Shown piece after piece: positions 1,624 through 19,577 of a stretch of DNA of 19,637 nt (positions within the stretch are counted from its first letter, which is position 1; each line of letters opens with the position of its first letter). The stretch spans positions 1 through 19,637 of the forward strand of contig CAADGV010000027.1 in NCBI GenBank assembly GCA_900696645.1. Direction: 5' to 3'. The DNA is from an uncultured Chlorobiota bacterium. Its GTDB lineage: Bacteria; Bacteroidota; Ignavibacteria; UBA10030; UBA6906. The position numbers and the translations under genes are program-made. Under the pieces are notes generated by a model, which worked only from the letters and a program-made list of their open reading frames with translations, did not search any database and was not told the DNA's origin.

Positions 1624-2916
1624 TCAATCTGGTAAGGGAAACGTAAGCGTGAACGTCGTGCCCTCACCCTGTCGCGAGTCTACCCTTATACTCCCACCAT
1701 GGTTTTCCACAATCTGACGGCAGACAAGTAACCCGTATCCATGACCGTCGACCTTGGTTGTCACCTTTTCAGCAAACAACTTTGGCAGGATGGACTCGTC
1801 GATACCGGGACCGCTGTCTTCTACCTTGAGAATTGCGACACGGTTCGTAGGATTGACTTCGGTAACAAACCGGATGTCCGCATCGGCGCGGGCTTCCACG
1901 ATATTGTTCACCAAATTCAGCAATACTTGCTGAATCTGATCGATGTCCAGGTTCAGCAGGGGGATATTCTCCGCCAAAGAACACGAAATTTTGTTGGACC
2001 TGAATTTGGGAATAAACCTCATGAAATCGGCAAAGTCGGATGTAATTTTGTTCAGGCAACGAGGCGCAAGATTCACGGCAGAGTGAGGACGACTGAGGAG
2101 ATTTGTGGAGAACTTTTCAATCTTCCGGACGCCGCCGATTGCATTTTCAATAATCCCGCTTAGCTCATCTGGTGTTACTGAACCAATACGCATCCGCAAA
2201 CGCTGCAAGCTGAGCAGTACCACTGAAACAAGATTCTTCAGTTCGTGACTTACTTCCGAAGCTAATTCTCCTTTCATCGCCATCCGCTCGGACTGGATAA
2301 TGTGCAGATGCGCCTGTCTCAGATCCTCATATGCCTCCTTGAGATTGGCATAGAGTTGCGCGTTGCGAATGGCGATGGCTGCCTGCCCGACAAGGATTTC
2401 AAACAGGGAGAGGATTTCGCCTTTGTCGACCGACTGGATGTGCTTGCTGTCCACATACAGTACTCCGATCTTCTCCTCTTGAGTCTTGAGAAGACTGCAG
2501 ATAATCGTCTGCAACTCAAGACTGAGAATACTTTTTCGGCTTTCGAAGCGCTGATCCGTGAGGGCACTTTCGATGCAAATGGATTCGCCGGTGTTGTACA
2601 CATCCTCAAGCACGCTGGAGCTGACCTGGATATTTTCGGCTTGCAGTGATTCCCCGCGTGCATTACGACCAATGACATAGGCAAGTTTGCCTGCTTCGTT
2701 GGTGAGCATAAGGAAGCCGCGGTCGGCCCTCACAATACGGATTGCCTCATCTGTAACGTGTTCCAGCACCTGTGAGAGTTCGAGCGAACTGTTGATCTTG
2801 CGAACAACGTTCAGGATCATTTCCAGATCGTGAACTCTCGTCTGCGCACTATCTCCTGCTTCCTCACTTTCGTGGTGCGCAACACGATCACTCTTGATGA
2901 GTTCCTCGAGTTTCAT
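1624..2916 (-). CDS. GAF-domain sensor histidine kinase (HK1), paralogue of the kinase at 5218-6564
   Basis: A 430-residue kinase with no signal peptide or membrane segment, so probably cytoplasmic. A short N-terminal linker leads to a GAF sensor domain (about 45-188), a connecting helix (about 190-215), the phosphoacceptor H-box with His-224 in EVSHELKNLV, and a HATPase domain. The latter has N-box QQVLLNLVNN, G1 DSGPGID and G2 GHGYGLLVC, followed by the C-terminal beta strands. Such proteins autophosphorylate on His and pass phosphate to a receiver Asp. ATG 2916 follows a G-rich ribosome-binding site (GGGGGGAT, 10 bases upstream). It lies 30 bases after the TPR gene on the same strand, so the two are probably co-transcribed. 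In the GAF core it has CSLLKT where the paralogue has CSPLQT. The ligand is unknown and no matching intact receiver is encoded in the window. Confidence 0.9.
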   Translation of the reverse strand: MKLEELIKSDRVAHHESEEAGDSAQTRVHDLEMILNVVRKINSSLELSQVLEHVTDEAIRIVRADRGFLMLTNEAGKLAYVIGRNARGESLQAENIQVSSSVLEDVYNTGESICIESALTDQRFESRKSILSLELQTIICSLLKTQEEKIGVLYVDSKHIQSVDKGEILSLFEILVGQAAIAIRNAQLYANLKEAYEDLRQAHLHIIQSERMAMKGELASEVSHELKNLVSVVLLSLQRLRMRIGSVTPDELSGIIENAIGGVRKIEKFSTNLLSRPHSAVNLAPRCLNKITSDFADFMRFIPKFRSNKISCSLAENIPLLNLDIDQIQQVLLNLVNNIVEARADADIRFVTEVNPTNRVAILKVEDSGPGIDESILPKLFAEKVTTKVDGHGYGLLVCRQIVENHGGSIRVDSRQGEGTTFTLTFPLPD

Positions 2917-2946
2917 GGATTGAATATCCCCCCATTTTGGTAAGTT

Positions 2947-4098
2947 CTAACGACACGCTTTTTGCATCATGCAAAGCCCCGATGGCCTGGAATGTCGGAG
3001 GCTCTTTTCCAATGCGATACGGGCTCCGCTCTTCTTGTCGCTGCACGCGTACAAAATGCCAAGTTGCCGACAACACTCCGCAACCCCGTACCGGTTCTCC
3101 ATTGCCTGATTGATCGACAGGCTTGTGCGGAAATACCATTCGGCAAGCTCTAAGCGTTTCTCACTCCGATAAATTTTGCCCTTCAGCAGAAACAGGTCGG
3201 CGGCATGTATTCTGTTGTCATGCGTTGAGAGCGCCTCACGCGCCTGGTTTGCGAATGTCAATGACGCCTTCATGTCTCCCAATTCAAACAGTATAATCGC
3301 TCTTCCCAGATTCGAAAGTCCTTGGAACGTTGGACTGCTGGCTTTCTTACCGAGAGATGCTGTTCGGTCGAATTGGCGTGCTGCATCCCCGAACGAACGC
3401 TTTGCGAGAAATGCCATGCCGATTCTGTAATGCAACAAAGCCAGCCGTGCCGGGTCGCCTACCTCTTCGAAGTGGGACCTGGCACGGTGGTAGGAGCTTA
3501 GCGCGGCATCGTAATCGCCGAGCAGACTTGACACAACCCCAAGATTCATCTGTGCGATGCCCGAATCGACCACTTCGTTAAAGTGCTCGAATGATTGCAG
3601 TGCGTGCCTGATATATGACTTTGCCCGTTTAATTTTCCCTCTCAACGCGTAGCTCAAACCCAGAATATTCTCCACCCTCCCTGCTGCAACAGGTATGTTG
3701 AGTTGTTGGTAGATTCTTCTCCCGCGTTCAAAGTCGGCGATTGCTTCACGCCATTTCCCCTGCGTTTTGTACACATCCGCCCTTTGCAATAGCGCTTCGG
3801 CAAGGAGGCTGAGGGAACACCCACTTGACCACCGGTCCAACCCCAAGTTGTACAACTCCTCGGCCCGGGAGGCATCCCCGAGATCCCTATAATAATTCCC
3901 GATGGATATGACAAGCCTGAAAAAATCTTCCTTCTCCATCGATTCACTCCACAGTTTGAGAAATCCGTCGGGCAGACCGGAGTTCCCCTGCAACGCTTCT
4001 TGCAGGCCGGGCATATCCGAACCTTCAAAAGGGTTGCCCGTGTTGTGAATTGGTGAATCGATTCTTATCAACCTTGGCATCATTCCCGTCGGTGACAT
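2947..4098 (-). CDS. TPR-repeat protein, probable signalling scaffold
   Basis: A 383-residue soluble protein made almost entirely of tetratricopeptide repeats from about residue 60 to 370. Examples include units with A-x-x-x-Y-x-x-A (DYDAALSSYHRARSHFEEVG), RVENILGLSYALRGKIKRAK and LAEWYFRTSLSINQAMENRY. The first 50 residues are non-repetitive, with no signal peptide. TPR arrays bind partner proteins and have no catalytic activity. The repeats resemble those in the C-terminal half of the large Ser/Thr kinase at 8606-12298. ATG 4098 is used; ATG 4083 is an in-frame alternative and neither has a strong ribosome-binding site. The gene lies downstream of a sigma-54-type promoter candidate (4264-4279) and a leader with two hairpins, and 30 bases upstream of HK1. 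A role as adaptor or regulator of HK1 is inferred from position only. Confidence 0.85.
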   Translation of the reverse strand: MSPTGMMPRLIRIDSPIHNTGNPFEGSDMPGLQEALQGNSGLPDGFLKLWSESMEKEDFFRLVISIGNYYRDLGDASRAEELYNLGLDRWSSGCSLSLLAEALLQRADVYKTQGKWREAIADFERGRRIYQQLNIPVAAGRVENILGLSYALRGKIKRAKSYIRHALQSFEHFNEVVDSGIAQMNLGVVSSLLGDYDAALSSYHRARSHFEEVGDPARLALLHYRIGMAFLAKRSFGDAARQFDRTASLGKKASSPTFQGLSNLGRAIILFELGDMKASLTFANQAREALSTHDNRIHAADLFLLKGKIYRSEKRLELAEWYFRTSLSINQAMENRYGVAECCRQLGILYACSDKKSGARIALEKSLRHSRPSGLCMMQKACR

Positions 4099-4142
4099 TA
4101 TTGTTCATGCCTTGCAGAGCAACATCGATGTAATGAACTTTA

Positions 4143-4201
4143 CACTCAAGCACTGAGTGGCAGAGGCTCTCGGGGGGCAGATTCCTGTGCTCGGGAATCT
4201 G
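4143..4201 (-). promoter_or_regulatory. Two adjacent hairpins in the presumed 5' leader of the TPR-HK1 transcript
   Basis: Two perfect inverted repeats lie close together. CACTCA / TGAGTG (4143-4148 and 4154-4159) has a 5-base loop. CAGATTCC / GGAATCTG (4178-4185 and 4194-4201) has an 8-base loop. If transcription starts at about 4253, both would be in the untranslated leader, 45-105 bases before the TPR start codon. Neither is followed by a T-run on the - strand, so they are not typical terminators. They could affect RNA stability or bind a protein; this is inference. Confidence 0.4.
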
Positions 4202-4263
4202 AGGCAAGTGGAGATCGAGTCGTGACTAGACTACCCGATCCCTCTCTTGCGAAGGAAACAACG

Positions 4264-4279
4264 TGCAAGCAATATGCCA
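4264..4279 (-). promoter_or_regulatory. Sigma-54 (-24/-12) promoter candidate for the TPR-HK1 pair
   Basis: Read on the - strand the site is TGGCATATTGCTTGCA. The sigma-54 consensus is TGGCAC-(G)-N4-TTGCA. The GG at -25/-24 (4278-4277) and GC at -13/-12 (4266-4265) have the required 12-base offset, and TGGCA and TTGCA are both exact. Predicted start about 4253, giving a leader of about 155 bases to ATG 4098. An inverted repeat (4312-4327) lies about 35-50 bases further upstream, where an activator could bind, and the window itself encodes a sigma-54 activator. Confidence 0.6.
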
Positions 4280-4311
4280 GTATTATCGTAGAAGGGTAAC
4301 TCGCAGAAAAC

Positions 4312-4327
4312 TGCCGTTAACTCGGCA
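4312..4327. promoter_or_regulatory. Inverted repeat TGCCG-N6-CGGCA upstream of the -24/-12 site
   Basis: TGCCGTTAACTCGGCA has perfect 5-base arms with a 6-base spacer and sits 33-48 bases upstream of the -24 element. The same pentamer TGCCG recurs twice at 7073-7077 and 7084-7088 in the other long intergenic region of the locus. It is a possible operator for the activator at 7175-8596. The arms are short, so chance is not excluded. Confidence 0.3.
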
Positions 4328-4463
4328 ATAATTCACTATCTGGTAGGAGTGAAAGGAAGCTGATTGCTACGTTTTGATTCAGATTGGTTGTATTGCTGGA
4401 ACATTATGTTACACCCACAGCGTCAAACAGTTACACCGATGCCCACACTCCTGTCTGGCTTGT

Positions 4464-5249
4464 CTAATCAAGGCATCTTTTCTGAGGCACAACCACTCTC
4501 GCAGCAACAACCGAGATGTTGTCTTCGCTGTGATTTGTACCGGCTTGGTGGATGAGTCTCACCACAACCTGATCGAAATCGGTGGTGTCGAGAGTATTCT
4601 GAATTTCCATATCAGAAACGACAGATGTCAGGCCATCAGAGCAAAGAACAAGAGTATCTCCTGCTGCAATATCGCCGGAATAGAGATGCGGCTGTATGTT
4701 CCTTTGAGGACCTATGGCCTGCGTAAGTACATGAGACAGGTTGCGAACACCGGGGCTGAAAGGATTAAAATACATACTGTCCATTGCATGGTCCCGACTG
4801 ACCATTTGAAGAGTGCCGTTGCGAAACAAATATGCACGGCTATCGCCTACATTCACAACAACAAGAGTACTGCCGATAATCACAGCAGCCACTGCCGTTG
4901 TACCGATACCTTTCTTTCCGTAAGTCCTCCTCCCCTCTTCATAGACAAGGCGGTTCATTTCGACCATCGACTCGGCCAGACACTCCTGCACATTCGGGTT
5001 TGGGTTCTCAAGATAAATCCATGGCAACAGCGAAGTGACCATCGCGCTTGCATGCTCACCGGCTTCCATCCCCCCCATGCCGTCTGCGACTACCAGAAGC
5101 GTCCCTTTTTCCGGCACACCTTGATCTGAGTAGTTGACGACTGTCAGGCTATCTTCGTTACGATCACGAACAGGGCCCTTCTCGCTTGTGCAAACGAATT
5201 GAACGACAAACTGTTTTTCACTGGCAATAGCGTGTGTTGAATTCAACAT
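4464..5249 (-). CDS. PP2C-family Ser/Thr protein phosphatase
   Basis: A 261-residue metal-dependent phosphatase that removes phosphate from Ser/Thr residues and is the usual counterpart of bacterial Hanks-type kinases. All core PP2C motifs are present: RDRNED (Asp-33), VADGMGG (Asp-56, Gly-57), GIGTTAV (about 114-120), VGDSRAY (135-140), LCSDGLT (Asp-205) and the final metal ligand in EDNISVV (Asp-243, Asn-244). There is no membrane segment or extra domain. The start ATG 5249 lies inside the end of the HK2 gene (32-base overlap) with no good ribosome-binding site, pointing to translational coupling. The natural substrate in this locus would be the kinase encoded at 8606-12298 or its targets, which is an inference. 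It lies within the size range of stand-alone phosphatases such as PrpC/Stp. Confidence 0.92.
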   Translation of the reverse strand: MLNSTHAIASEKQFVVQFVCTSEKGPVRDRNEDSLTVVNYSDQGVPEKGTLLVVADGMGGMEAGEHASAMVTSLLPWIYLENPNPNVQECLAESMVEMNRLVYEEGRRTYGKKGIGTTAVAAVIIGSTLVVVNVGDSRAYLFRNGTLQMVSRDHAMDSMYFNPFSPGVRNLSHVLTQAIGPQRNIQPHLYSGDIAAGDTLVLCSDGLTSVVSDMEIQNTLDTTDFDQVVVRLIHQAGTNHSEDNISVVAARVVVPQKRCLD

Positions 5250-6564
5250 GAGAATCAGCGTGATCCGGTTTGTTTTGTGAAACCGGGAGCGAGATGACGA
5301 ACACTACTCCCTCCCCTTTTTTTGATTGAACTGAGATCGTCCCTCCATGCCCTTCAATAATCTGCCTACAGATTGGAAGTCCGTAGCCGTGGCCATCAAC
5401 CTTCGTTGTGATCTTTTCCGTGAACAGACGGTTAAGAATGGCCTCATCTATGCCGGGACCGTTGTCCTTGACAAGAAGTCGCACCATATTCGCCGCGGCA
5501 TCATGTTCCGTCTGCAGTGTGATTGCCGCAAACGGATCGGCTTCGACACTATTGTTAACAAGGTTGAGAAGCACCTGCTGAATCTGATCGGTATCAAGAT
5601 CAACGACCGGTATCTCATCGCTCAGAACGGCTTGGATACTGTTCCGCTTGAATTTGGGCAAGAACATCACAAATTCGACAAAATCAGAGGCAACCTTGTT
5701 CAGACTGCCGGGCACCAGTTTCGATGAACTCGGACGTCTGCTCAGAAGGCTCTTAGAAAACCCCTCAATCTTACGTGCACCCGTGATGGTCTTTTCAATC
5801 AACCCGCTGATTTCATCAATTGATACATTGCCGGATTTTCGTTGCATGAGCTCGAGGTTCAGCAACACCACGGCTACGAGGTTTTTCAGTTCGTGGCTAA
5901 CTTCGGCGGCAAGCTCGCCTTTCATCGCCATGCGTTCGGACTGGATTATGTACTGGTTCGCCTGCTTCAGTTCTTCATACGTCCGTTTGAGGTTGTCATA
6001 CAGACGGGCATTGTTTATTGCAATTGCGGCCTGCCCGGCAAGAATCTCGAATACGCTCAGGATTTCGTCTTTCTCGACAGCCTGAATGAACTTGCTGTCG
6101 ACATAAATGACGCCGATTTTCTGATCATGAGTCTGCAAAGGGCTGCAGATAATCGTCTGCAACTCAAGATTCATGATGCTTTGTCGCCTCTCGAACCGCT
6201 CGTCATTCAGGGCATTCTCAATGCACAACGATTCGCCTGTCGCAAACACATCCTCCAGCACAGTGGAACTCACCTGAAAACTTTCGGCTCGAATCGATTC
6301 GCCATTGGCGTTTCTGCCTATAACGAATTCGAGTCTACCCCCGCTATTTGCAAGCATCAGGAATCCCCGCTCGGCCGTTGCCAGTCTGATTGCTTCATCG
6401 GTAACAAGCTCAAGCACTTCATTCAGTTCAAGAGATGTATTGATCTTCCGAACGATATTGAGGATGGTCTCAATATCGCGGACGGTCGATCGTGGCGGCG
6501 GATCAATCACATCGACCGGCGCTTCAACCGTAAGGCTCTGCCGCATCAGATCGTCAAGATTCAT
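5218..6564 (-). CDS. GAF-domain sensor histidine kinase (HK2), paralogue of HK1
   Basis: A 448-residue cytoplasmic kinase with the same layout as HK1: GAF (about 45-188), helix, H-box with His-224 in EVSHELKNLV, N-box QQVLLNLVNNSVEA, G1 DNGPGID and G2 GHGYGLPIC. It has a 20-residue C-terminal tail absent from HK1. The two align without gaps from residue 34 through the H-box; over residues 34-93 I count 18 differences in 60 positions. ATG 6564 has a good ribosome-binding site (GAGGTG, 5 bases upstream). The PP2C gene starts inside its 3' end, so the two are produced together. Upstream is a 610-base gap with only weak promoter candidates. As with HK1, no intact receiver partner is in the window; the pseudo-receiver of the sigma-54 activator lacks the acidic pair. 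Confidence 0.9.
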   Translation of the reverse strand: MNLDDLMRQSLTVEAPVDVIDPPPRSTVRDIETILNIVRKINTSLELNEVLELVTDEAIRLATAERGFLMLANSGGRLEFVIGRNANGESIRAESFQVSSTVLEDVFATGESLCIENALNDERFERRQSIMNLELQTIICSPLQTHDQKIGVIYVDSKFIQAVEKDEILSVFEILAGQAAIAINNARLYDNLKRTYEELKQANQYIIQSERMAMKGELAAEVSHELKNLVAVVLLNLELMQRKSGNVSIDEISGLIEKTITGARKIEGFSKSLLSRRPSSSKLVPGSLNKVASDFVEFVMFLPKFKRNSIQAVLSDEIPVVDLDTDQIQQVLLNLVNNSVEADPFAAITLQTEHDAAANMVRLLVKDNGPGIDEAILNRLFTEKITTKVDGHGYGLPICRQIIEGHGGTISVQSKKGEGVVFVISLPVSQNKPDHADSHVEFNTRYCQ

Positions 6565-7174
6565 AGCAACACCTCACTACTGTGCATCTCTGAAGTCCAT
6601 ATCTGTGTTCCGGTTCTTCCAACAGGAAACAGACAAACACCACAGGCCATTTCTGTTCCCCACAAGGGACACATCCATTGGCTCAATTCTTCTCCCCATT
6701 TTGTTGATATTGACTCGTCACTTCTTGTCATCGCCGACGAAAAACGAAGTTGCATCTCGGCGCGGTAACAAATCCTCCGGGCATTGCAGCCCGCCAAACC
6801 ACGGCACATTGTTACTACGGGAAGATTTCTGCGCGACTCAACCCGCTGCCTCCAATGCAACGTTCAGTCTCTTGGGGGAAAGAGCATACTGCGAGGCGTA
6901 AGGGGATCAATTCACACCTCTGTAATCACTATTCGTGTTACCATCTGTATGCCACAATGGGGGAAGGCGGTATTGGGGTATGATAGGAAAGAGGTGACGA
7001 TAACTGCTTGTTATAATGAGGCTTACACGGACTCAGAAATCAAATGCAGTTGTTGGAGATATGCGAACCGAGTGCCGACATCGTGCCGTCGGTAAACTCT
7101 GCGAAAAGAGGAAGGAATTTTCTACAATCGACTTCTGATTGCCTCTGTTGAAACGGTAAGCTTTGCTGACAGTC
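6565..7174. other. 610-base intergenic region with no convincing gene
   Basis: No frame here has a plausible protein on either strand. A 99-codon - strand frame (6561-6860) touches the HK2 start with an ATGA overlap but is rich in Cys, Trp, Met and Arg with no motif. A small inverted repeat ATAAC-TGCTT-GTTAT sits near 7000-7014, and two TGCCG copies with -24/-12-like spacing lie at 7062-7088. No intrinsic terminator is evident after the activator gene, so HK2-PP2C might still be reached by read-through. Confidence 0.45.
7062..7089 (-). promoter_or_regulatory. Tandem, overlapping -24/-12-like elements (weak)
   Basis: On the - strand, CGGCACGATGTCGGCA (7089-7074) and CGGCACTCGGTTCGCA (7077-7062) each carry GGCAC with a GC exactly 12 bases on, as sigma-54 promoters require. 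Both lack the first T and deviate in the TT of the -12 box. Downstream is HK2, but about 490 bases away. They might equally be copies of an activator site containing TGCCG/CGGCA. Confidence 0.25.
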
Positions 7175-8596
7175 TCATTGTTTAATGCTGCGCAGGATGC
7201 GGTCAAGCCGGGGGCGTGACACCTTCAGTATCCGCGCCGCTTTCAGCTTGTTTCCGCCGACATATTCAAGCACTTTTTTGGCGAGCATTGCCTGAACCTC
7301 CTTTGCCGAGGCCTGATCGAGGGGAACGAGGAGCATAAGAGTCTCCATAGGCATAGTCGGAAGTGCATCACTTGATCCGGCAATAATACGTTTTTTGGCA
7401 GGCCGTATGGTCCGATCCTCAAACTCAAAATCCTCTTCAGCGAGCCAGTCACCTTCTTCCAGCAGAACAGCCCGTTCAATTGCATGCTTGAGTTCACGAA
7501 CATTTCCTTCCCAAGAATGTTGCATGAGAAGGTGCATGGCTTTAGGAGCTATGCCCTTTATTTTCTTGGTGTATGTGTGATTGAATGACTTGAGGAATGC
7601 TTCCGCAAGAAGCGGAACATCCTCTATACGTTCGGCAAGGCTCGGCAATTCCAGCGGCAGAATTTTCAAGCGATGATACAAATCTTTCCGGAATTCATTT
7701 GCCCGGATTTTTGTGGAAAGGTCGGCGCTTGTTGCTGCAATGATGCGTGCACGGACAGGCACGTCACGTATGCCTCCGACCCTCCGCATTGTCCGGTCCT
7801 CAATGACTTTGAGAAGTTTAGACTGAATTGCGAGAGAGATATCTCCTATCTCGTCCAGAAAAATTGTCCCGTCACCGGCAAGCTCAAACAGTCCGATCTT
7901 TCGTTCCTTGGCATCTGTGAACGCTCCCTTTTCGAAGCCGAACAGTTCGGCTTCAAGCAACGTTTCGGGAAGAGCGCTGCATGCAATGTCAACGAACGGG
8001 CTGTTACGGTTCGCGCTGTTGTAGTGGATAGCGCGTGCAAAGAGTTCCTTCCCTGTTCCGGTTTCACCTGTAATCAGGATCGTTCGTGCGTTGTTTTTAA
8101 TGACTTTTCGGGCCCGCTCGATGGTTTGCTTCAAAAGCGGCGATGAACCGATAATCGAACGAAAGTCATACACCTCCTGCTGAATCTCAACAAAACGGCT
8201 TTTCTGTTTCTTCGCCTGCCAGTCGTTGTAGAGGAGGTTGACTTCATCGCGAATTTTTCTATGCTCATCCGGCACAATGAAGTATGCAGAAACCCCGAGC
8301 TTCACCAAATCAACGGCGAAACTGTGATCAGGGTCTTGAGCAAGGGCGACAATCGGTACGTCAGGGATCTCTGAACAGAATTCCTTCAACGACGATCGCA
8401 GCGTCAGATTATCACGCGTAACGTCAATAAGAACAAGCCTCGGCACATTGAACAACGCCCTCCCGACCAGAAACGACGGCGAAGAAGCAAACTGCAGGTG
8501 AACATCATCTGCCGGAGTTATCAATCGGCGTACATCTGCCATCATTTCTTTGCGGCCGCAAAGCAGAATCGTGAACCGGTCTTTTTTTGTGGGCAC
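7175..8596 (-). CDS. Sigma-54-dependent transcriptional activator with degenerate receiver domain
   Basis: A 473-residue bacterial enhancer-binding protein of the NtrC type. Residues 1-125 have a receiver-like fold. Asp-58 (LVLIDV) sits at the phosphoacceptor place, but the acidic pair normally after strand 1 is Cys-Gly (13-14). The Thr/Ser of strand 4 is Ala and the Lys of strand 5 is not evident, so ordinary Mg-dependent phosphorylation is unlikely. The AAA+ domain spans about 146-375: Walker A GETGTGKE (177-184), sigma-54 loop GAFTDA (224-229, usually GAFTGA) and Walker B GTIFLDE (243-249). The last 45 residues form a Fis-type helix-turn-helix (NKLKAARILKVSRPRLDRIL). The start is GTG 8596, with GAGGA 7 bases upstream overlapping the stop of the kinase gene 9 bases away, so translation is coupled to the kinase. 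Control by that kinase or by protein binding is plausible. Confidence 0.92.
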   Translation of the reverse strand: MPTKKDRFTILLCGRKEMMADVRRLITPADDVHLQFASSPSFLVGRALFNVPRLVLIDVTRDNLTLRSSLKEFCSEIPDVPIVALAQDPDHSFAVDLVKLGVSAYFIVPDEHRKIRDEVNLLYNDWQAKKQKSRFVEIQQEVYDFRSIIGSSPLLKQTIERARKVIKNNARTILITGETGTGKELFARAIHYNSANRNSPFVDIACSALPETLLEAELFGFEKGAFTDAKERKIGLFELAGDGTIFLDEIGDISLAIQSKLLKVIEDRTMRRVGGIRDVPVRARIIAATSADLSTKIRANEFRKDLYHRLKILPLELPSLAERIEDVPLLAEAFLKSFNHTYTKKIKGIAPKAMHLLMQHSWEGNVRELKHAIERAVLLEEGDWLAEEDFEFEDRTIRPAKKRIIAGSSDALPTMPMETLMLLVPLDQASAKEVQAMLAKKVLEYVGGNKLKAARILKVSRPRLDRILRSIKQ

Positions 8597-8605
8597 GACT
8601 ATTCC

Positions 8606-11600
8606 TCAGGATTTGATGATTGAGTCTATCGTTGCTAGAACCCGGTCTTTTTGATCAACAGCAAGATAACTTGATTTCAACTGGTCGGATGAAATGCGAG
8701 AAAGAAAGAACTGCACAATGAGCCTCGTCTTGATGAGATACTCCTTTGCACGATCGCGCTGTCCGCGGTTATAGTATTCCCCTGCCAACGCATATGCCAG
8801 CTTCCACGTTATCTCTGCGATCGGTTCTTTCGCAAGAATATCCATCCCTCGCTTAAACGCGACAATCGGTTTTTCCAGTCCTTCGCCGTTCTTCGAGCCG
8901 GCACAGATGCCAAGGATGAAATTCGCTTCAGCAAGGTAGCGGGGATGGCGGTGTACCTCTTGTTCACCCAGTATTCCGTTGGCAAGCGTCGCCGCCTCCT
9001 CATTGTTCTCCAACTTGTTCAAACACTCGGCAAGTCGCAATTGGGATTGCCATCGGATCTCATTGGTCTTTTCTTCGCTGGACACACGCATTGCATCGCG
9101 GAATGCTACGCAGGCTTCATCGTACTTCCCGCAAAGATAGGTACGCGACCCACGAAGAAGCAGGTAACGAGCAAGAAATGTACGTTGACCTTCCTTCTCT
9201 ATCAAAAGTCCTGCTTCATTGAGCCTCGTCCCGGCAATATCAAGAACGCCGAGGGCAAGAAGAGCCTGCACACCAAACAACAAGCTGTCTACCTGATGAT
9301 ATCTGTTCTCCATTGCTTCGGCCAGACCTCGGGATTCGTCAAAGAACGTAAGTGCCTTCTCATACTCACCTTCAGCAAGAGATACCTCTCCAAGATTCGC
9401 AATGACCAGCGCCAAGCCAGCCATCGAATCAATCCGTTGGTATTGTGAGCGTGCCTTATCGTAATACTGTCTTGCGGCGCCGTATTTCCTGAGACTGTAA
9501 TGCGCGATCCCAAGATTATTGTGAATCAGCGCCTGCTGATGCATCGTGCCGAAATCCTCACTTGCCTTCAGTGCCCGGTGCCAATACTCAATGGCCCGCT
9601 CCGTGTCACCTTTCCTGCTCAGGACATTGCCAATGTTGTTCATCGAGTTGATCACCTGCGTTCGTTCCCCCGTCGATTCAAACTGCTTCATTGCTTCAAT
9701 AAAGCACTCTACGGCATCATCGAAGCGCTCCTGGTAGAAGGTTGCAATCCCGAGATTGGTATAGATGTCGCCTTTCAGCCTGTTCGATTCCAAACCGGCG
9801 ATCTCTCCGAGCTGCTGCAGGCAATCCTTTTCAGCCTCTGCAAAACGACTTGCAGAGATTGCAAGTCCGACCAGTTCCTGCCGCAGTTCAAGCTGCTCCG
9901 CTTTGTCGGTTGTTTCGCGCAGAGCCGCACTCAGAAGCTCGTGGGCAAGATCATTCTCACCAAGCCGGGATGCAGAAAATCCCATCACCTTGGAAAGCCG
10001 GGCTCTCTCGGGGGGCAGCAAAGCCGTATTATCCTTCAGTTCACGGCACAATGTAATTGCTTCCCGATACGAACCAGTCTCGTAGAGTGCCGTGGCCAGC
10101 TTTACTTGAACAGCTACTTCACCACGAACATGCCGGTTTGCCTTTGCGAGTTCTATCGCGCTACGATACAGTTGAAGTGAGCGTTGAAGAGCGAACAACC
10201 TCATTCCTTCGTCGGCGGCCCGTTCGTAACAGGAGAATGATTGCATGTACTTGCCGCATCCGGCAAACTGGAAGGCAAGTTCCTGCAATCCTTCAAATCC
10301 ACGGGAGCTTTCCTCATCACGTTCCAGCGTTGTCGAGATCAGTGCGTGCAGTTCAGGCTTCTCATCCTGAATCCGTTCGTAAATCGCGTCTTTCAGCCTC
10401 TTTATCCTTATGAAGACACGCTGACCGGAGCTCGATATAAACTCGTCGAGGTACAGAAACCGAAGGTGATCCGACATGCGCTGCGGGTGAAAAGGAAGGA
10501 GTCCGGCGAGTATCTTCTCTTTCACAGGAAATTGGAAACACGCAAGAATGCTGAGAACCAACTGCCTCTCGCGGCTCAATTTGTTGAAGCGCGCAAGAAG
10601 GAAGTCATCTATCGTGCGCGGGAGTTTCGTCTCCAATCCGGAAACGAATTCCTTCCCCATGTCGGGCTGCTTCAGCGCATCGGCCGGAACCATTGACAGC
10701 ACGGCATTGAGTGCCTCCACCACGATCGCCGGCGTTCCGCCATATAGACTATGGAGCAATGAACTTATTGAATGGACTACGGAAGTTTTCCCGAGAACCG
10801 ACTGGCTTATCTCGGCAATCTCTTCAGCAGCAAGTTCACCCAAGTGAAGCTCTTCAGCAATCGCCGACGGAAAGACTGTTGCCCTTTCGGCAGTTTCCGC
10901 GACAAGCGCCATCACACGCCCTTTCATTGCATCGCGTATGATTGTGCGTACCACCTGTACCGACGCTTCATCGAGACGCTGGGCGTTATCAATTACCACA
11001 ACGAAGGGAAGTACATCCGAACATGCAACAAGAAATCTCGCCAGAAGCTCGGCACTCTCATCCTTCCTTCCGCCCCACCTCTCAAAACGATGTGCAGGGG
11101 CTGCACTTAGACCAATCAGTTGATCGAATCTGTCAAACACCATTCTTCCTTGCTCCGAGCAGGAACGAATATCCGCAACCAGAGGTGAGAGAATTTCGGA
11201 TATGCCTTCGAAAGGAACATCTGAACGAATGGGATCGATTTCATATACAGTCAAACCGGAGGATCGAGCATGCTTCAGAGACTCTTTGATCAGGGAGGTT
11301 TTGCCGATGCCCTCCGGGCCCGTAACGCTGATGGCTGAGCGGGAAGGCACATCTCCGTCAGTGCCAAGAGCAGACAAAGCACGTTGAATCGTCTCGAGTT
11401 CCTTGCGGCGGCCGACAAAGCGGGACGACCGCGAAAGCCCGAAATATGATTCATACAACTCAACGCCGTTTTGCATTGACGAACTGAGCTTTCGTGCAGC
11501 CTCTTCTGCAGTGGCAAACCTGCGGGAGGGCTGCTTCTGCATAAGTCCCAGAATGACCTCTCGCGTGCGGGATGTTCCTGCCCCTGATGTGAAGCGCGGT

Positions 11601-12298
11601 TCCTCCGAAAGAACGCGTTTGACCAGTTCTACCGGTGTTCCTGCTTCAAACGGGGGATGTCCTTCAAGCAAGTGATAGAATGTTGCGCCCAGCGAATATA
11701 AGTCCAGCCGGTGGTCGTATTCCTCACCCTTGAGGCATTCCGGCGCCGTGTACTCCAGCGTCCCCCGGACGGAAATATCAAGCGTCTCCTCTTTCTTCTT
11801 GCTAAAGCCGAAGTCTGCCAATTTGAGCAACGGGGCTGTTGCCATTTTCCCTTCATCGACAACCACAAGATTCTGCGGCTTAATATCGAAATGCACAATA
11901 CCTTCGCGATGGACGTAAGAAAGAACACTCAATGCCTGAAGCAGGAGGAGTTCAAGTTGCGAATGCTTCTTTTCAACATTGGACTCAACCCACGCCAGCG
12001 TATCAACACCACGCAACAATTCCATTGTGAAGAATCGTCTCAGAAGAAGGGCTTCGTCCGCATGCTGTATCGTGCCGAAGTCAAATATGCGGATCAGATT
12101 CGGATGTGAAAGGGCAAGCAGCGCCGATACTTCATTCTTGAAAACTTCATCGGCCTCCGTGTCGGATTCCCCGAAGCGATGGAGAATTTTCATCGCCATC
12201 TGTTGATTCTTCCGGCAGGTATCTTCAACCAAGAATACCTCGCCACTTCCACCGACACCCAGTTTTTGAAGAAGGGTGTACCGGAAATTGATCATCAT
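8606..12298 (-). CDS. Large Ser/Thr protein kinase with AAA-type ATPase and TPR array
   Basis: A 1230-residue cytoplasmic signalling protein. Residues 7-270 are a Hanks-type kinase: glycine loop LGVGGSGEV (13-21), Lys-37 in AMKIL, Glu-56, catalytic loop HFDIKPQN (Asp-138, Asn-143; Phe replaces Arg of HRD), DFG (162-164) and APE (185-187). From about 293 there is an orphan ATPase domain of the type seen in PknK/MalT-like regulators, with VGRRKELE, Walker A GPEGIGKTS (327-335, Lys-333) and a Walker B-like VVVIDNAQ. Residues about 690-1190 are tetratricopeptide repeats. The frame is open to 12385, but ATG 12298 is chosen: it overlaps the permease stop as ATGA and has GTGAGG a few bases upstream. 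This couples the kinase to the transporter genes. The activator follows 9 bases later. Likely role: a sensor/switch whose ATPase-TPR part gates kinase activity. Confidence 0.93.
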   Translation of the reverse strand: MMINFRYTLLQKLGVGGSGEVFLVEDTCRKNQQMAMKILHRFGESDTEADEVFKNEVSALLALSHPNLIRIFDFGTIQHADEALLLRRFFTMELLRGVDTLAWVESNVEKKHSQLELLLLQALSVLSYVHREGIVHFDIKPQNLVVVDEGKMATAPLLKLADFGFSKKKEETLDISVRGTLEYTAPECLKGEEYDHRLDLYSLGATFYHLLEGHPPFEAGTPVELVKRVLSEEPRFTSGAGTSRTREVILGLMQKQPSRRFATAEEAARKLSSSMQNGVELYESYFGLSRSSRFVGRRKELETIQRALSALGTDGDVPSRSAISVTGPEGIGKTSLIKESLKHARSSGLTVYEIDPIRSDVPFEGISEILSPLVADIRSCSEQGRMVFDRFDQLIGLSAAPAHRFERWGGRKDESAELLARFLVACSDVLPFVVVIDNAQRLDEASVQVVRTIIRDAMKGRVMALVAETAERATVFPSAIAEELHLGELAAEEIAEISQSVLGKTSVVHSISSLLHSLYGGTPAIVVEALNAVLSMVPADALKQPDMGKEFVSGLETKLPRTIDDFLLARFNKLSRERQLVLSILACFQFPVKEKILAGLLPFHPQRMSDHLRFLYLDEFISSSGQRVFIRIKRLKDAIYERIQDEKPELHALISTTLERDEESSRGFEGLQELAFQFAGCGKYMQSFSCYERAADEGMRLFALQRSLQLYRSAIELAKANRHVRGEVAVQVKLATALYETGSYREAITLCRELKDNTALLPPERARLSKVMGFSASRLGENDLAHELLSAALRETTDKAEQLELRQELVGLAISASRFAEAEKDCLQQLGEIAGLESNRLKGDIYTNLGIATFYQERFDDAVECFIEAMKQFESTGERTQVINSMNNIGNVLSRKGDTERAIEYWHRALKASEDFGTMHQQALIHNNLGIAHYSLRKYGAARQYYDKARSQYQRIDSMAGLALVIANLGEVSLAEGEYEKALTFFDESRGLAEAMENRYHQVDSLLFGVQALLALGVLDIAGTRLNEAGLLIEKEGQRTFLARYLLLRGSRTYLCGKYDEACVAFRDAMRVSSEEKTNEIRWQSQLRLAECLNKLENNEEAATLANGILGEQEVHRHPRYLAEANFILGICAGSKNGEGLEKPIVAFKRGMDILAKEPIAEITWKLAYALAGEYYNRGQRDRAKEYLIKTRLIVQFFLSRISSDQLKSSYLAVDQKDRVLATIDSIIKS

Positions 12299-13509
12299 GC
12301 TTGCCTCACCCCATCTTTCACGGCATAGTGAAGCGCAATCAATACCGCGGCAAGCAGCGCTCCCGGAAAGAATCCCAGCCACCATCCTGAATGCAACGAA
12401 CTAAGTGATTGCCACAACATATTCCCCCAACTTGCAGTCGGCGGTTGGATGCCAAGTCCCAGGAAACTCAACGATGCCTCCGCCAACACTGCACTGCCAA
12501 ACTGGAGGGTGGCTGCAACGACAAGAATCGGTTTGAGATTCGGCAGCATGTGTTTACGGAGTATATTCCAACCCGATTGATGAAGAAGTCTTGCTGCAAG
12601 GATGAATTCTTTCTCACGCAGTCGCAGTACTTCGGTTCGAACCGTTCGGGCTATCCCCATCCACCCGGTGAGGGAAAGGAGGATGATAAGAGATGTGATG
12701 GAGGTCCCCAAAAACGCCATCACTGCAACGACCAGAAAAATGCTTGGAATGGAAAGCATGAGGTCGGTGAGTCGCATCAAGATTGTATCAAGTGCACGAT
12801 TCGTGTACCCGGCAAGGAAGCCAACAATGACCCCAATCAGAAGAGAACCAATTGTAGCACATAGCCCGATCCCCAACGATACCCGGGTGCCGAATACAAC
12901 GCGACTGAAAACATCCCGCCCGATATCATCAGTCCCGAAAAGAAATCGAATAGAACTCATTTTAGTCGCAGATGTTTCGTTCGGTTCATCATGGGGCTGT
13001 GCGTGAAAAGAGATGTTCTGTTGCAGCAACAAGTTATTCGATTTTTCATACGATCGTTGCAGTGAACTCAACTCTACCGGTTCCGTATCTTGCGGAACTG
13101 TGTGTACAAGGGCCCCCCGGCTCAACGGGCCAAGCAACCGTGTCGTAACAAGATCCCCCTGTTTGTTCGGACCGATTGGGGTCAAAAAGGGGGCACAAAC
13201 CGCAATAAAAGCCAGAATCGCCAGAAAACCGACGGGTCGTAACCTCCACTTCTGGGCAACAGTCTGACCTTGGAAATCTTGCCAAATCTTCCACATGATA
13301 TACACTCCGCCGCCAAGCCATACAACCGCAGCGAGCCAAAACTCCCAGACATCGTGTCTCCAATATGTCGCCGGAGATGTCAGTTCCGAAAGAGTCAGGA
13401 GGCAGTACGAACAAAGCGAGACAATGCTCGCAACAATCTCATCTATCTTTTTCCAGAACAGAAAGAGGTAGATGACAAGACCGGCAGAGAGTAGCGTACT
13501 GCGTTTCAT
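12295..13509 (-). CDS. ABC transporter permease, DppC/OppC-like, with N-terminal extension
   Basis: A 404-residue inner-membrane permease for peptide or nickel-type ABC importers. The conserved C-terminal core has FLFGTDDIGRDVFSRVVFGT, several membrane helices, the EAA-loop (EFILAARLLHQSGWNILRKH followed by MLPN) that contacts the ATPase, and ASLSFLGLGIQPP. Family members are usually about 270-300 residues. Here about 90 extra N-terminal residues add hydrophobic segments (about 5-40 and 57-77) before the usual first helix (about 92-110). The loop before the GTDDIGRD motif (about 110-180) is also unusually long and polar. ATG 13509 has GGAGG 6 bases upstream and starts 2 bases after the DppB-like stop; its own stop overlaps the kinase start. 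No ATP-binding subunit is encoded in the window. Confidence 0.9.
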   Translation of the reverse strand: MKRSTLLSAGLVIYLFLFWKKIDEIVASIVSLCSYCLLTLSELTSPATYWRHDVWEFWLAAVVWLGGGVYIMWKIWQDFQGQTVAQKWRLRPVGFLAILAFIAVCAPFLTPIGPNKQGDLVTTRLLGPLSRGALVHTVPQDTEPVELSSLQRSYEKSNNLLLQQNISFHAQPHDEPNETSATKMSSIRFLFGTDDIGRDVFSRVVFGTRVSLGIGLCATIGSLLIGVIVGFLAGYTNRALDTILMRLTDLMLSIPSIFLVVAVMAFLGTSITSLIILLSLTGWMGIARTVRTEVLRLREKEFILAARLLHQSGWNILRKHMLPNLKPILVVAATLQFGSAVLAEASLSFLGLGIQPPTASWGNMLWQSLSSLHSGWWLGFFPGALLAAVLIALHYAVKDGVRQA

Positions 13510-13511
13510 TG

Positions 13512-14474
13512 TTATCCTCCAATCCGCAACCGCGGATCGATGAATGCATTGAGGATGTCGGCAAGCATGTTACCGGCAATCACTACAACTCCGGCTACGA
13601 GCGTACAGCCCAGTATGAGCGGATAATCACGTGCGTAAATCGCCGCAACAGTCAACTGCCCCATCCCAGGCCATGAAAACAGAACCTCAGTCACCAGTAC
13701 GCCGGTCAGCAAAATCCCGATCTCCACTCCTATAAGTGATACAATGGGCGTGATTGCATTCGGCAGAACATACATGCTGAAGATTTTTCTCTGCGGCAGT
13801 CCCATACTTCGAGCATGAAGCACATACGGTTGCTGCATCACGGCAGACACGTTACTTTGCAGATAGCGGGCCAGCCCGGCAGCGGCAGGGATAGCCGCGG
13901 TACAAGCAGGCAGTACAAGATGATGCAGAATATCCGGCACCGATCCGGCTTGGCCTGACGAGTACATTTGTGATGAAGGAAATAGGCCGAGTCCGTATGA
14001 AAAAATAACAAGCAACATAATGCCGACCCAAAACGAGGGCAGCGCATACACAACCAACAGCGCGTTTGCGAGCACCATCTCTACCCGTTTTCGCTTCGTG
14101 AAGAACGTCGCGGCCGCAAGCGAGATGCCCAGCACCACTTCAAGAAACAACGCAGCGCCGGCAAGAAGAATGGTGTTTGGGAACACTTCCCCGATTATGT
14201 CAGCAACCGGCGCATGCCGGGCTAATGACATTCCCAGATCGCCGGAAAAAACCGAGCTAAGCCAAACCCAGTATTGCTCAAGCAAAGGCCGGTCCAGCCC
14301 GAATTGCCTTTGCAACTGATCTCTGACGGTTTCCGGAATTGTCGGGGAGAGAAGCGCATCAGTCACACTGCCGGGCAGCAACCGGGATAAGAAGAAAACG
14401 ATTGTCACCAGGCCGAAAATGAGGGGAACTGCTTCGAGAATACGTCTGAGAACGTAGTAGAAAAGTGACACCAA
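13512..14474 (-). CDS. ABC transporter permease, DppB/OppB-like
   Basis: A 320-residue inner-membrane permease of the peptide/nickel importer class, of normal length. It has the typical N-terminus YYVLRRILEAVPLIFGLVTI, the GLDRPLLEQYWVWLSSVFSG segment followed by DLGMS, membrane helices at about 95-125, 135-165, 180-205, 235-260 and 285-305, the cytoplasmic coupling loop (HARSMGLPQRKIFSMYVLPN) and the end FIDPRLR. The annotated start is TTG 14474; GTG 14471 is equally possible, with GCGGAA 6-9 bases upstream. It follows the binding-protein gene by 17 bases and precedes the DppC-like gene by 2. It should form a heterodimeric channel with that protein and receive substrate from the lipoprotein encoded upstream. 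Confidence 0.93.
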   Translation of the reverse strand: MVSLFYYVLRRILEAVPLIFGLVTIVFFLSRLLPGSVTDALLSPTIPETVRDQLQRQFGLDRPLLEQYWVWLSSVFSGDLGMSLARHAPVADIIGEVFPNTILLAGAALFLEVVLGISLAAATFFTKRKRVEMVLANALLVVYALPSFWVGIMLLVIFSYGLGLFPSSQMYSSGQAGSVPDILHHLVLPACTAAIPAAAGLARYLQSNVSAVMQQPYVLHARSMGLPQRKIFSMYVLPNAITPIVSLIGVEIGILLTGVLVTEVLFSWPGMGQLTVAAIYARDYPLILGCTLVAGVVVIAGNMLADILNAFIDPRLRIGG

Positions 14475-14491
14475 AGTGATTCCGCTAGCGA

Positions 14492-16177
14492 CTATTGGGT
14501 TTGTGCCGTTTCAACGCGCCACTCCCACGCATTATGTGTCGTTCCGAGAATGCCGATGTGAGTTCCCTGTACCCGCGTGCGCACACCGGTGATGTTGTTG
14601 ATCCAGAACAGGAAGGTATACGGCTGCTCATCGTACACAATCGTTTGAAACTCTTTCCACAAAGAAGCCCCCTCGGTTTCATCGGAAAGTGTCCGTACCT
14701 CCGCAAGAATTGCGTCAACGCGGGGATGCCGGAAGCCTGCAAGATTGAACGGATATTTCTTCAGGTCGGAGCCCCACAGATCATCCAATTGCATCTGCAG
14801 CGGAACACTGAAGCCGGCAAACCAGGCATCATACGATCGCTGCATCAGATTATTCCAGAACGTTCCGCGTTCCACCTGTTCAATCTTCATTTCAATCTTT
14901 ACGTCCTTCAACTGCTGTTGAATAACTGTGGCCATCAGATTGCGAAGTTGGTTGCCCGACGCAAGGTTCAGCGTGAACGAAAACTTCATACCGTGTTTGT
15001 CGAGAATTCCGTCACCATTGGAATCTCTCCACCCCTCCTTTTGCAGAATGCTCGCTGCCTGTGCCTTGTCGAACGGCAACGGCTGGAGTGTATCGTTGTA
15101 TGCCCATCTGAACAGCGGTGAAACGCCGCCGATGGCCTCCTGTCCGTGCTCGCCTAGATATGCTTTCACAATCTCGCGCCGGTTGATCGCCATTGTGAGC
15201 GCCCGCCGAACACGGGACGAACCGAACAGCGGATGCGGTTTGATTTCCCGCCCCGCCGTTTGTGTGTACGTTTCGGGATCGATGTTATTCCATCCGATAA
15301 AGTCATAATCTCGACCGACGGTAGAGATGATTGTGATGGATGGATATCGCGAAGGCAAATCGGCTTCTTCAAGACGCAAACCCGAGACGACATCAACCTC
15401 ACCGGATATTAATTGCTCAACACGTGTTCTATAGTCGGGCAAGATCTTGAACACCAGTTGAGACAACTTCGGGGTGAATGGCTCATAAGGGAATCTGGAT
15501 GGCGACAGAACGACTTCCTGCAACGGATTCCAGCGGGCTATTGCAAACGGGCCGGCTGTTGTTGGAGCCTTGTTGTGCAGACTCGTCCGAATTTCATTCC
15601 GCGGTATGCCGCTGAAGATATGCGCGGGAATGATCGGGAGGCCCACATCGAACAACTGTCCCGGACGGGCTTGTTCGAAGTGAAACACAATCGTGGAATC
15701 ATTTAGTACATCTATACTCTTGCCGACTTCGAGCTTGCCGTTCGTACGGCGGAAATTCTGCACGGCACTTTGGCGAACACTTGCTACAATCGTATCGCCG
15801 TACAGTTCAAAGGAGAACCGGACATCGCGGGCCGTCACGGCAACGCTGTCCGACCATCGAAAATCGGTTCGAAGATGAAATGTTACATCACGCTGACCGT
15901 TACTGGACTCCCATGACTTGGCAAGAAACGGCGCAAATTCCAGTGACCCCTGTGTGGCGTTGAATTCGGGATGGATCAGGCGGGGAAAAATTAGATCGTT
16001 GATTTCGCCGGCAACTATTTCACGGGCGAAAAGAGGATTGAATGTATCGATATCGCCTTCGATAGCGACGGTGACTGCGGCACGCTCACGATCTCGAGTA
16101 CCGCATCCCCCAAAAAAAATTGAAATCGCAGCTATCGACAAAAACGATAGCTGCAATACAGCTATTTTGTTACGCAT
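14492..16177 (-). CDS. Peptide-binding lipoprotein of an ABC importer (SBP family 5)
   Basis: A 561-residue extracytoplasmic solute-binding protein of the DppA/OppA family. The N-terminus is a lipoprotein signal: basic MRNK, a hydrophobic stretch and FFGGC with the lipidated Cys at 25 (Phe at -3 is unusual). The mature part has family landmarks: ITVAIEGDIDTFNPL-like strand, FAPFLAKSWE, VTFHLRTDFRWSDS, TAGPFAIARW, a central VRRALTMAINRREIVKAYL, and a Ca-loop-like DSNGDGILD. It would capture peptides, or another small ligand, and deliver them to the DppB/DppC-like pair. ATG 16177 directly follows AGGGG, closer than ideal. A good vegetative promoter lies 20-55 bases upstream. The first codons contain overlapping inverted repeats (16128-16165). 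It is the first gene of a five-gene operon ending in the sigma-54 activator. Confidence 0.93.
   Translation of the reverse strand: MRNKIAVLQLSFLSIAAISIFFGGCGTRDRERAAVTVAIEGDIDTFNPLFAREIVAGEINDLIFPRLIHPEFNATQGSLEFAPFLAKSWESSNGQRDVTFHLRTDFRWSDSVAVTARDVRFSFELYGDTIVASVRQSAVQNFRRTNGKLEVGKSIDVLNDSTIVFHFEQARPGQLFDVGLPIIPAHIFSGIPRNEIRTSLHNKAPTTAGPFAIARWNPLQEVVLSPSRFPYEPFTPKLSQLVFKILPDYRTRVEQLISGEVDVVSGLRLEEADLPSRYPSITIISTVGRDYDFIGWNNIDPETYTQTAGREIKPHPLFGSSRVRRALTMAINRREIVKAYLGEHGQEAIGGVSPLFRWAYNDTLQPLPFDKAQAASILQKEGWRDSNGDGILDKHGMKFSFTLNLASGNQLRNLMATVIQQQLKDVKIEMKIEQVERGTFWNNLMQRSYDAWFAGFSVPLQMQLDDLWGSDLKKYPFNLAGFRHPRVDAILAEVRTLSDETEGASLWKEFQTIVYDEQPYTFLFWINNITGVRTRVQGTHIGILGTTHNAWEWRVETAQTQ
16128..16165 (-). 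promoter_or_regulatory. Mutually exclusive hairpins in the first codons of the binding-protein gene
   Basis: One inverted repeat has perfect 10-base arms GCAGCTATCG / CGATAGCTGC (16128-16137 and 16145-16154, 7-base loop). A second has perfect 7-base arms ATAGCTG / CAGCTAT (16147-16153 and 16159-16165, 5-base loop). They share 16147-16153, so only one can form in the RNA. On the - strand a run of eight T follows the larger stem after about 9 bases. This resembles an attenuator, but it lies within codons 5-17 of the signal peptide and the T-run is not directly adjacent. Confidence 0.35.
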
Positions 16178-19232: not shown

Positions 19233-19262
19233 CTTTACCTCGGGGGTTTTGGGTTCAGAATG

Positions 19263-19302
19263 AAAATAAAAAAAAGCCTTCAACGATGAAATTGAAGGCT
19301 TT
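19263..19302 (-). terminator. Strong intrinsic terminator (active on the - strand)
   Basis: An 11-base perfect stem, AAAGCCTTCAA / TTGAAGGCTTT (19273-19283 and 19292-19302), has an 8-base loop. On the - strand it is followed at once by a T-rich tract (TTTTTTTTATTTT). It would stop leftward transcripts coming from the repeat region or beyond. It ends only about 30 bases before the preferred start of the metallopeptidase gene. On the + strand the stem is followed only by TTTGGGTTT, a poor terminator. Confidence 0.85.
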
Positions 19303-19329: not shown

Positions 19330-19577
19330 ATGACTAAGGCCTTGAAGGGTGAAGATACTTATCGTCCGAAGATGTACGCGCTACCGAGTGCTTCCACCTG
19401 TGACGCTGAACGTCCGAAGATGTACGCGCTACCGAGTGCTTCCACCTGCGATGCCGAACGTCCGAAGATGTACGCGCTACCGAGTGCTTCCACCTGTGAC
19501 GCCGAACGTCCGAAGATGTACGCGCTACCGAGTGCTTCCACCTGTGACGCCGAACGTCCGAAGATGTACGCGCTACC
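19330..19577 (+). CDS. Tandem-repeat peptide (16-residue units), 3' end missing
   Basis: ATG 19330 has a well-placed ribosome-binding site (AAAGGAAG, 19318-19325). It opens an 11-residue leader, MTKALKGEDTY, followed by four identical copies of RPKMYALPSASTCDAE and a fifth cut after RPKMYALP. I do not recognise the family. Each unit has one Cys, one Tyr, one Met and two Pro. The three bases that differ between units are all silent in this frame (TGT/TGC, GAC/GAT, GCT/GCC). There is no signal peptide. Repeated identical cores after a leader recall multi-core precursors of processed peptides, but no maturation enzyme is in the window and the leader is very short. The apparent ending after base 19577 comes from adapter sequence, so true length and copy number are unknown. 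The opposite strand (repeat SAYIFGRSASQVEALG, stop at 19359-19361) is also open and tolerates the same variants. Confidence 0.5.
19363..19577. repeat. 48-bp tandem direct repeat, 4.5 units
   Basis: Units at 19363-19410, 19411-19458, 19459-19506 and 19507-19554, with a partial fifth at 19555-19577. They start CGTCCGAAGATGTACGCGCT and differ only at three positions near the 3' end of the unit. There are no spacers, so it is not a CRISPR array. The length is a multiple of three, which keeps all frames in register. The contig ends inside the array, as expected where an assembler cannot resolve a repeat. Confidence 0.95.

Follow-up and report, generated by a model that had tools for sequence, protein, structure and literature searches.

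The window analysed here is the whole contig CAADGV010000027.1 (19,637 nucleotides; contig C27 of genome G000) of an uncultured Chlorobiota bacterium. It carries the genes of a peptide importer, a Ser/Thr kinase (KIN) and a sigma-54 activator (EBP), and is truncated at its right tip inside a tandem-repeat gene (REPEAT); all features described below lie on the minus strand unless stated otherwise. The gene cluster is conserved far more than expected by chance, because its order recurs in dozens of genomes of one bacterial class although KIN identity falls to about 22–30%. Two unrelated precursor-like proteins encoded with it, REPEAT and a lipoprotein-like protein (X), share a single heptapeptide motif. 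We slightly favour the explanation that the cluster is an autoinducer loop, in which a peptide is secreted, processed, re-imported and sensed by the TPR kinase, and a sigma-54 operon is switched on. For the broader proposal of a pheromone-type system outside Firmicutes, with species-specific heptapeptides from repeats or lipoprotein tails read by a kinase-AAA-TPR protein that controls a dead-receiver sigma-54 activator, we regard the chances as evenly balanced.

Conservation of the importer-kinase-activator module

Gene neighbourhoods were compared around 49 KIN homologues from a single bacterial class, and the counts were made by script. Some loci were sampled because they bear REPEAT and the loci are related to each other, so the p-values given here overstate independence. 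DppF-DppD were typically divergent from SBP-DppB-DppC-KIN-EBP; X or REPEAT came after EBP, PD40 and/or a TPR protein next, and a histidine kinase last. DppC was located immediately 5' of KIN in 42 of the 46 testable loci and EBP immediately 3' of it in 39 of 45, while a GAF histidine kinase was present farther downstream in 30 of 36. Among 100 relatives, KIN was detected in 20 at E ≤ 1e-30, 15 of these at E ≤ 1e-80; the peptide-binding lipoprotein SBP was found in 14 of the 15 KIN genomes vs 2 of the other 85, and in the lone KIN genome without it (G061) the contig stops at the kinase. Across the class, 59 of 391 genomes contained KIN relatives (E ≤ 1e-90), and in a phylum sample of 392 genomes all 15 KIN matches fell inside the class.

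A preliminary description of the locus had proposed that the transporter, the kinase and the activator belong together, and the neighbourhoods confirm them as one conserved module. It had also reasoned that the idea would fail if the genes were scattered in relatives or if the two halves of the locus never co-occurred. The halves do co-occur, as seen from the DppC-KIN, KIN-EBP, histidine kinase and SBP counts. Its inclusion of a PP2C-type phosphatase and twin histidine kinases in the core did not hold up. The phosphatase gene (PP2C, 4464–5249) was seen only in the window's genus and in G007, and the second GAF-HisKA-HATPase kinase (HK2, 5218–6564) is an extra copy found beside PP2C in the window's genus only; both are local additions. 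Family f23 has, after the module's GAF histidine kinase, a further hybrid kinase of the HisKA-HATPase-receiver type (18283–19794 of L149, 1090–2604 of L109).

Two unrelated putative precursors with a common heptapeptide

REPEAT is represented in the window by its 3' end (19359–19577), a propeptide-like, secreted-type tandem repeat of the form (SAYIFGRSASQVEALG)n in which five copies of SAYIFGR are visible, the last one ending at the stop codon. Its 5' part, with a signal-peptide-like start and seven copies, is found next to DppD on contig C45, and an intact orthologue is present in the sister genome G001 (19032–19748 of L035; also L143). Secreted proteins built from 15–16-residue repeats, e.g., (SRYGFLRSNSQLEELG)n or (SRYAFAKSNSQLDELG)n, occupy the slot after EBP in family f23 and in parts of f14, and these arrays usually terminate in SRYxFx[RK] followed by the stop codon. 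REPEAT proteins are 160–330 amino acids long. In most families of the window's taxonomic order, the gene after EBP instead encodes X, a protein of 170–220 amino acids whose few invariant residues are mostly in the C-terminal HFS-x-Y-x-F. Hydrophobic N-terminal stretches and lipobox-like cysteines are visible in the precursors.

X and REPEAT are unrelated, and the heptapeptide S[RA][YF]x[FW]x[RK], which is the C-terminus of X and part of the REPEAT unit, is the only thing they have in common. In nearly all complete REPEAT arrays and in most X proteins it ends exactly at the stop codon. The two versions also resemble each other within a genome: they are identical in G147 (SRFGFLR), and pair as SRFGFVR/SRFGWVR in G225 and as SAYGFGR/SAYIFGR in G000 and G001. 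Among the REPEAT units, 131 codon columns varied synonymously only and 17 altered the residue. The residue changes avoided the heptapeptide, with 2 of 15 falling within it (overlapping array counted once; binomial p 0.014).

REPEAT was found in 28 of the 391 class genomes, 27 of which also have KIN (22 by profile search and five with KIN seen next to REPEAT); in the 28th, G323, a PD40-histidine kinase tail is located on a contig that starts within the repeat. No X remnant was detected by tblastn between EBP and HK2 in the window. A lone X homologue elsewhere in the genome (C4, 19229–19825; L125) has the tail HFSAYGFGRLTSEENWH, in which the motif is followed by extra residues, and a similar one is present in G001.

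Predicted sigma-54 promoters and activator site

The top-scoring -24/-12 site of the window, TGGCATATTGCTTGCA at 4264–4279 (shuffle p 0.002), lies between PP2C and the gene of a 383-residue TPR protein (2947–4098), which is followed by HK1 (1624–2916), a GAF-HisKA-HATPase kinase. The latter two are core members of a second operon, which, judged by this predicted promoter upstream of it, looks like the output of the system. A weak site, CGGCACTCGGTTCGCA at 7062–7077, is located in the gap after EBP and is kept in G001, while G002 has both the site and an X gene there. In most loci of the relatives, a TGGCAY-N5-TTG site is found roughly 80–150 nucleotides 5' of X or REPEAT (combined shuffle p 2e-19 and 2e-9, respectively, not corrected for relatedness). 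The SBP-DppD gaps, used as controls, contained no sigma-54-type site of note. X genes elsewhere in the genomes had good sites in four out of seven cases. The pattern searched genome-wide in G000 gave nine matches vs three for the reversed control, several of them within genes, and therefore we claim no sigma-54 regulon.

Upstream of the site, a TGTAAC-N5-GTTACA palindrome (two mismatches allowed) was present in 16 of 26 regions, vs 8–9 for the best shuffled palindrome; in the window this predicted activator-binding site is TGTAACATAATGTTCCA (4397–4413). With one mismatch allowed the palindrome is not enriched genome-wide (six matches in G000 vs six for the control), and for this reason its weight lies in its position. 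The matches in KIN genomes were at these promoters, at a distant X gene in G008, and in the SBP-DppD gap of some members of the order.

Importer, kinase and activator

The window encodes SBP (SBP_bac_5; 14492–16177), a DppB/OppB-type permease (13512–14474) and a DppC/OppC-type permease (12295–13509). The latter has an N-terminal extension of ~170 residues, the OppC/DppC profiles matching only from about residue 174. Contig C45 carries the ATPase pair DppD/DppF next to the 5' end of REPEAT, and the initial idea of a transporter without ATPases was rejected. The uncut order of G001, with DppF-DppD divergent from REPEAT-PD40-SBP, is the arrangement from which the putative join of C27 and C45 at REPEAT was deduced. 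In G001 and many relatives DppD/F adjoin the operon, and the Opp/Dpp-type importer set is complete, with SBP, two permeases and two ATPases. SBP is the sole SBP_bac_5 protein of its genome, and its nearest solved structure is AppA of B. subtilis (1xoc). This makes a peptide-type ligand, as in the earlier suggestion, plausible.

KIN (8606–12298) combines Ser/Thr kinase, AAA_16 and TPR parts, and its catalytic Lys, Glu, HxD and DFG residues and P-loop are invariant across the aligned homologues. EBP (7175–8596) has a receiver-like N-terminus (hhalign against the receivers of other activators in its genome: probability 95, E 2.7e-8), a sigma-54 AAA+ domain and a Fis-type helix-turn-helix (HTH). 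It thus shows the features of a bacterial enhancer-binding protein (bEBP), namely AAA+ with Walker motifs, a GAFTGA-type loop and the HTH, and is no canonical two-component response regulator, as all homologues are without the acid pair, Thr and Lys of the receiver pocket, and L045 and L046 have lost the Asp position as well. The sigma-54 contact loop reads GAFTDA in every aligned homologue; among the activators read in G000, only the EBP of the module has GAFTDA, the seven others (L001, L003–L008) having GAFTGA. The same Gly-to-Asp change in NorR, G266D, lets the protein escape its repressing domain (PMC2941729). The histidine kinases had earlier been thought to provide a second input to the activator. 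Such an input is unlikely to take the usual route, since the receiver lacks the acid pair, Thr and Lys. At one locus (L111, contig C2 of G225), X, TPR and HK genes lie in the ~6 kb between two KIN homologues, with neither EBP nor a permease adjoining.

PD40, a candidate processing partner

PD40 (16287–19283) has an N-terminal gluzincin-like site, HELVH...WHQEGVAVFLE, a PD40 beta-propeller and a presumed C-terminal barrel. HE[LI]VH was present in all members inspected and WxxEGxA in several, and because of these motifs our guess is that PD40 is a peptidase; Pfam support covers the propeller only. Close orthologues, scoring about 890 bits and above against at most 583 in the next group, were found in 28 genomes, 26 of which are REPEAT genomes (26 of the 28 REPEAT genomes; Fisher p 5e-36). 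PD40 is regarded as a candidate processing or display partner of REPEAT.

Extent and remaining features of the locus

The nine genes of the preliminary description, from HK1 to SBP, are all on one strand where it had placed them, and the ATGA overlap of KIN with DppC is real, while the listed KIN open reading frame starts farther upstream, at 12385. The end it had set at 16177 was too early, since the locus extends past this point to PD40 and the REPEAT 3' end. The preliminary description had overlooked DppD/F, the genes for the precursors and for their peptidase-like partner, and the two predicted regulatory sites, namely the promoter and, upstream of it, the activator site. Rfam and tRNA scans of the window gave no matches. 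A plus-strand NicO-type metal transporter gene (659–1603; Pfam E 5e-8) adjoins HK1, and such a gene is beside the module in G001 and G002 as well. At the contig tip (19578–19633), 49 of 56 positions match the Illumina P5/TruSeq adapter (score 77; shuffled maximum 24); the tip is an assembly artefact at the break in REPEAT.

Proposed mechanism and alternative explanations

Based on the gene order and motifs, we infer the following loop. A Sec-exported precursor would carry either many copies of the heptapeptide (REPEAT) or one C-terminal copy (X). The REPEAT copies would be freed, probably assisted by PD40, the peptidase-like surface protein encoded next to REPEAT, and the X heptapeptide perhaps through a cut at the invariant HF|S. 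The heptapeptide, such as SRYGFVR, would be bound by SBP and taken up via DppBCDF. In the cytoplasm it may bind KIN at its TPR part, the TPR protein or both, and so activate KIN, which would phosphorylate or release EBP. EBP, bound at TGTAAC-N5-GTTACA, would then fire the sigma-54 promoter of X or REPEAT (in most lineages), PD40, TPR and HK, and induction of the precursor would constitute positive feedback. The window's genus has its predicted site before TPR-HK1 and REPEAT upstream of SBP, and PP2C and HK2 may act as added modulators.

Several observations weigh against this loop. In genus g148 the heptapeptides differ (SVYGYSK in REPEAT vs SRYTWAK in X of G287) and PD40 is not adjacent to REPEAT. 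The ends of the mature peptide are guessed from the shared motif, and the heptapeptide could be a beta-strand or a sorting motif. The match of X to ZU5, a domain superfamily with autopeptidases, is weak (E 0.0074, under the cut-off, in one of three members only). The -12 element is often not TTGC, its final C being frequently absent; in the window's own genus no sigma-54 site or upstream activator site is visible before REPEAT; and EBP is missing from some loci (L111, L112, L147).

If REPEAT and X were structural surface proteins (adhesin, sheath or amyloid-like) that PD40 displays or trims, the module would read their turnover peptides as an indicator of the state of the envelope rather than as a signal from other cells. 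This is conceivable, and we assign it a rather low probability. A secreted protein of 16-residue repeats, a lipoprotein and a large secreted PD40 would suit such a surface, SRYxFxR alternates like a beta-strand and closes a domain in X, and the same promoter logic would fit. However, a structural role predicts neither that two unrelated proteins have just a heptapeptide in common, with agreement within genomes, nor that this motif stops exactly where the protein does, as in nearly every complete array and the majority of X proteins. The complete importer with its AppA-like binding protein and the strict co-occurrence of SBP and KIN would also be in line with sensing of nutrient or foreign peptides, where Opp/Dpp reports environmental peptides to KIN and EBP, and X or REPEAT captures or buffers them; this comes near to what the preliminary description had proposed. 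We find such sensing improbable: the predicted output consists of X or REPEAT, TPR and HK with no visible peptidases or catabolic genes, and the conserved repeated heptapeptide precursors are left without a role. The structural and nutrient explanations are less favoured because neither accounts for the shared heptapeptide.

Secreted precursors, a dedicated peptidase-like partner and an importer might belong to an antimicrobial peptide that has its own regulation and its own import or immunity, the heptapeptides acting on neighbours. This is very improbable, as the locus is without an exporter, modification enzyme or immunity gene, PADLOC gave only generic kinase and AAA matches, and a short linear peptide is conserved across families. 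Anti-phage defence was rejected, the only matches being generic kinase, AAA and TPR.

Significance and comparison with known systems

In the open-licence literature on quorum sensing and sigma-54 in Ignavibacteria, on Gram-negative Opp-type pheromones and on tandem-repeat signal precursors, no description of the system was found. The module and its combination of parts could not be matched to any described system there and may be new. Peptide pheromones that are taken back into the cell are known mainly from Firmicutes. If the proposed loop is true, a class outside this phylum evolved an equivalent scheme with different components: multi-copy precursors, a peptidase-like protein linked to them, a TPR Ser/Thr kinase as receptor candidate and a sigma-54 output. 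A large unnamed gene cluster would gain a function, a Hanks-type kinase would control a sigma-54 activator directly, and the signals would be defined short peptides that are readily synthesised. Without the peptide, there is still a widely conserved importer-kinase-activator module with no named match in open-licence papers.

Individual parts resemble known proteins. Autoprocessing has been proposed for the ZU5-superfamily domains of bacterial surface proteins and PIDD (PMC3482391). The secreted domain of X, ending in HFS, possibly has the same fold, but it matches weakly, lacks the CxH motif described there and would release just a heptapeptide. EBP resembles the NtrC-family bEBPs in its receiver-like domain, sigma-54 AAA+ domain and Fis HTH, and in the palindromic enhancer upstream of -24/-12, but has lost the receiver pocket and carries GAFTDA in place of GAFTGA. 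The cyanobacterial dual kinases HstK/cbSTKIII likewise link a Ser/Thr kinase domain with GAF-HisKA modules (PMC2176072). These are on one polypeptide, whereas here the kinase and the GAF histidine kinase are encoded in separate operons, together with a peptide importer and a sigma-54 activator.

The closest parallel in workings is the RRNPP group of Firmicutes (PlcR-PapR, NprR, Rap-Phr, ComR), with its secreted propeptides, cytoplasmic TPR proteins and feedback on the propeptide gene (PMC10075063), and with an Opp-type importer (PMC10569065), the genes of which are here present and linked. RRNPP receptors are peptide-binding TPR proteins of 250–500 amino acids, for which the 383-residue TPR protein and KIN with its TPR part are candidate counterparts. 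Such receptors carry an HTH domain or act as Rap-type regulators; no HTH match was found in either the TPR protein or KIN. The propeptides of RRNPP systems are Sec-exported, have 10–100 residues and are encoded beside the receptor gene; those described here, with their hydrophobic N-terminal stretches and lipobox-like cysteines, are long multi-copy proteins (160–330 amino acids) or lipoproteins (about 170–220). Moreover, the candidate sensor is a Ser/Thr kinase-AAA-TPR protein, the output goes via a sigma-54 activator, and the hosts are apparently not Firmicutes. Because several defining features differ, we do not file the system under RRNPP, though its workings are alike.

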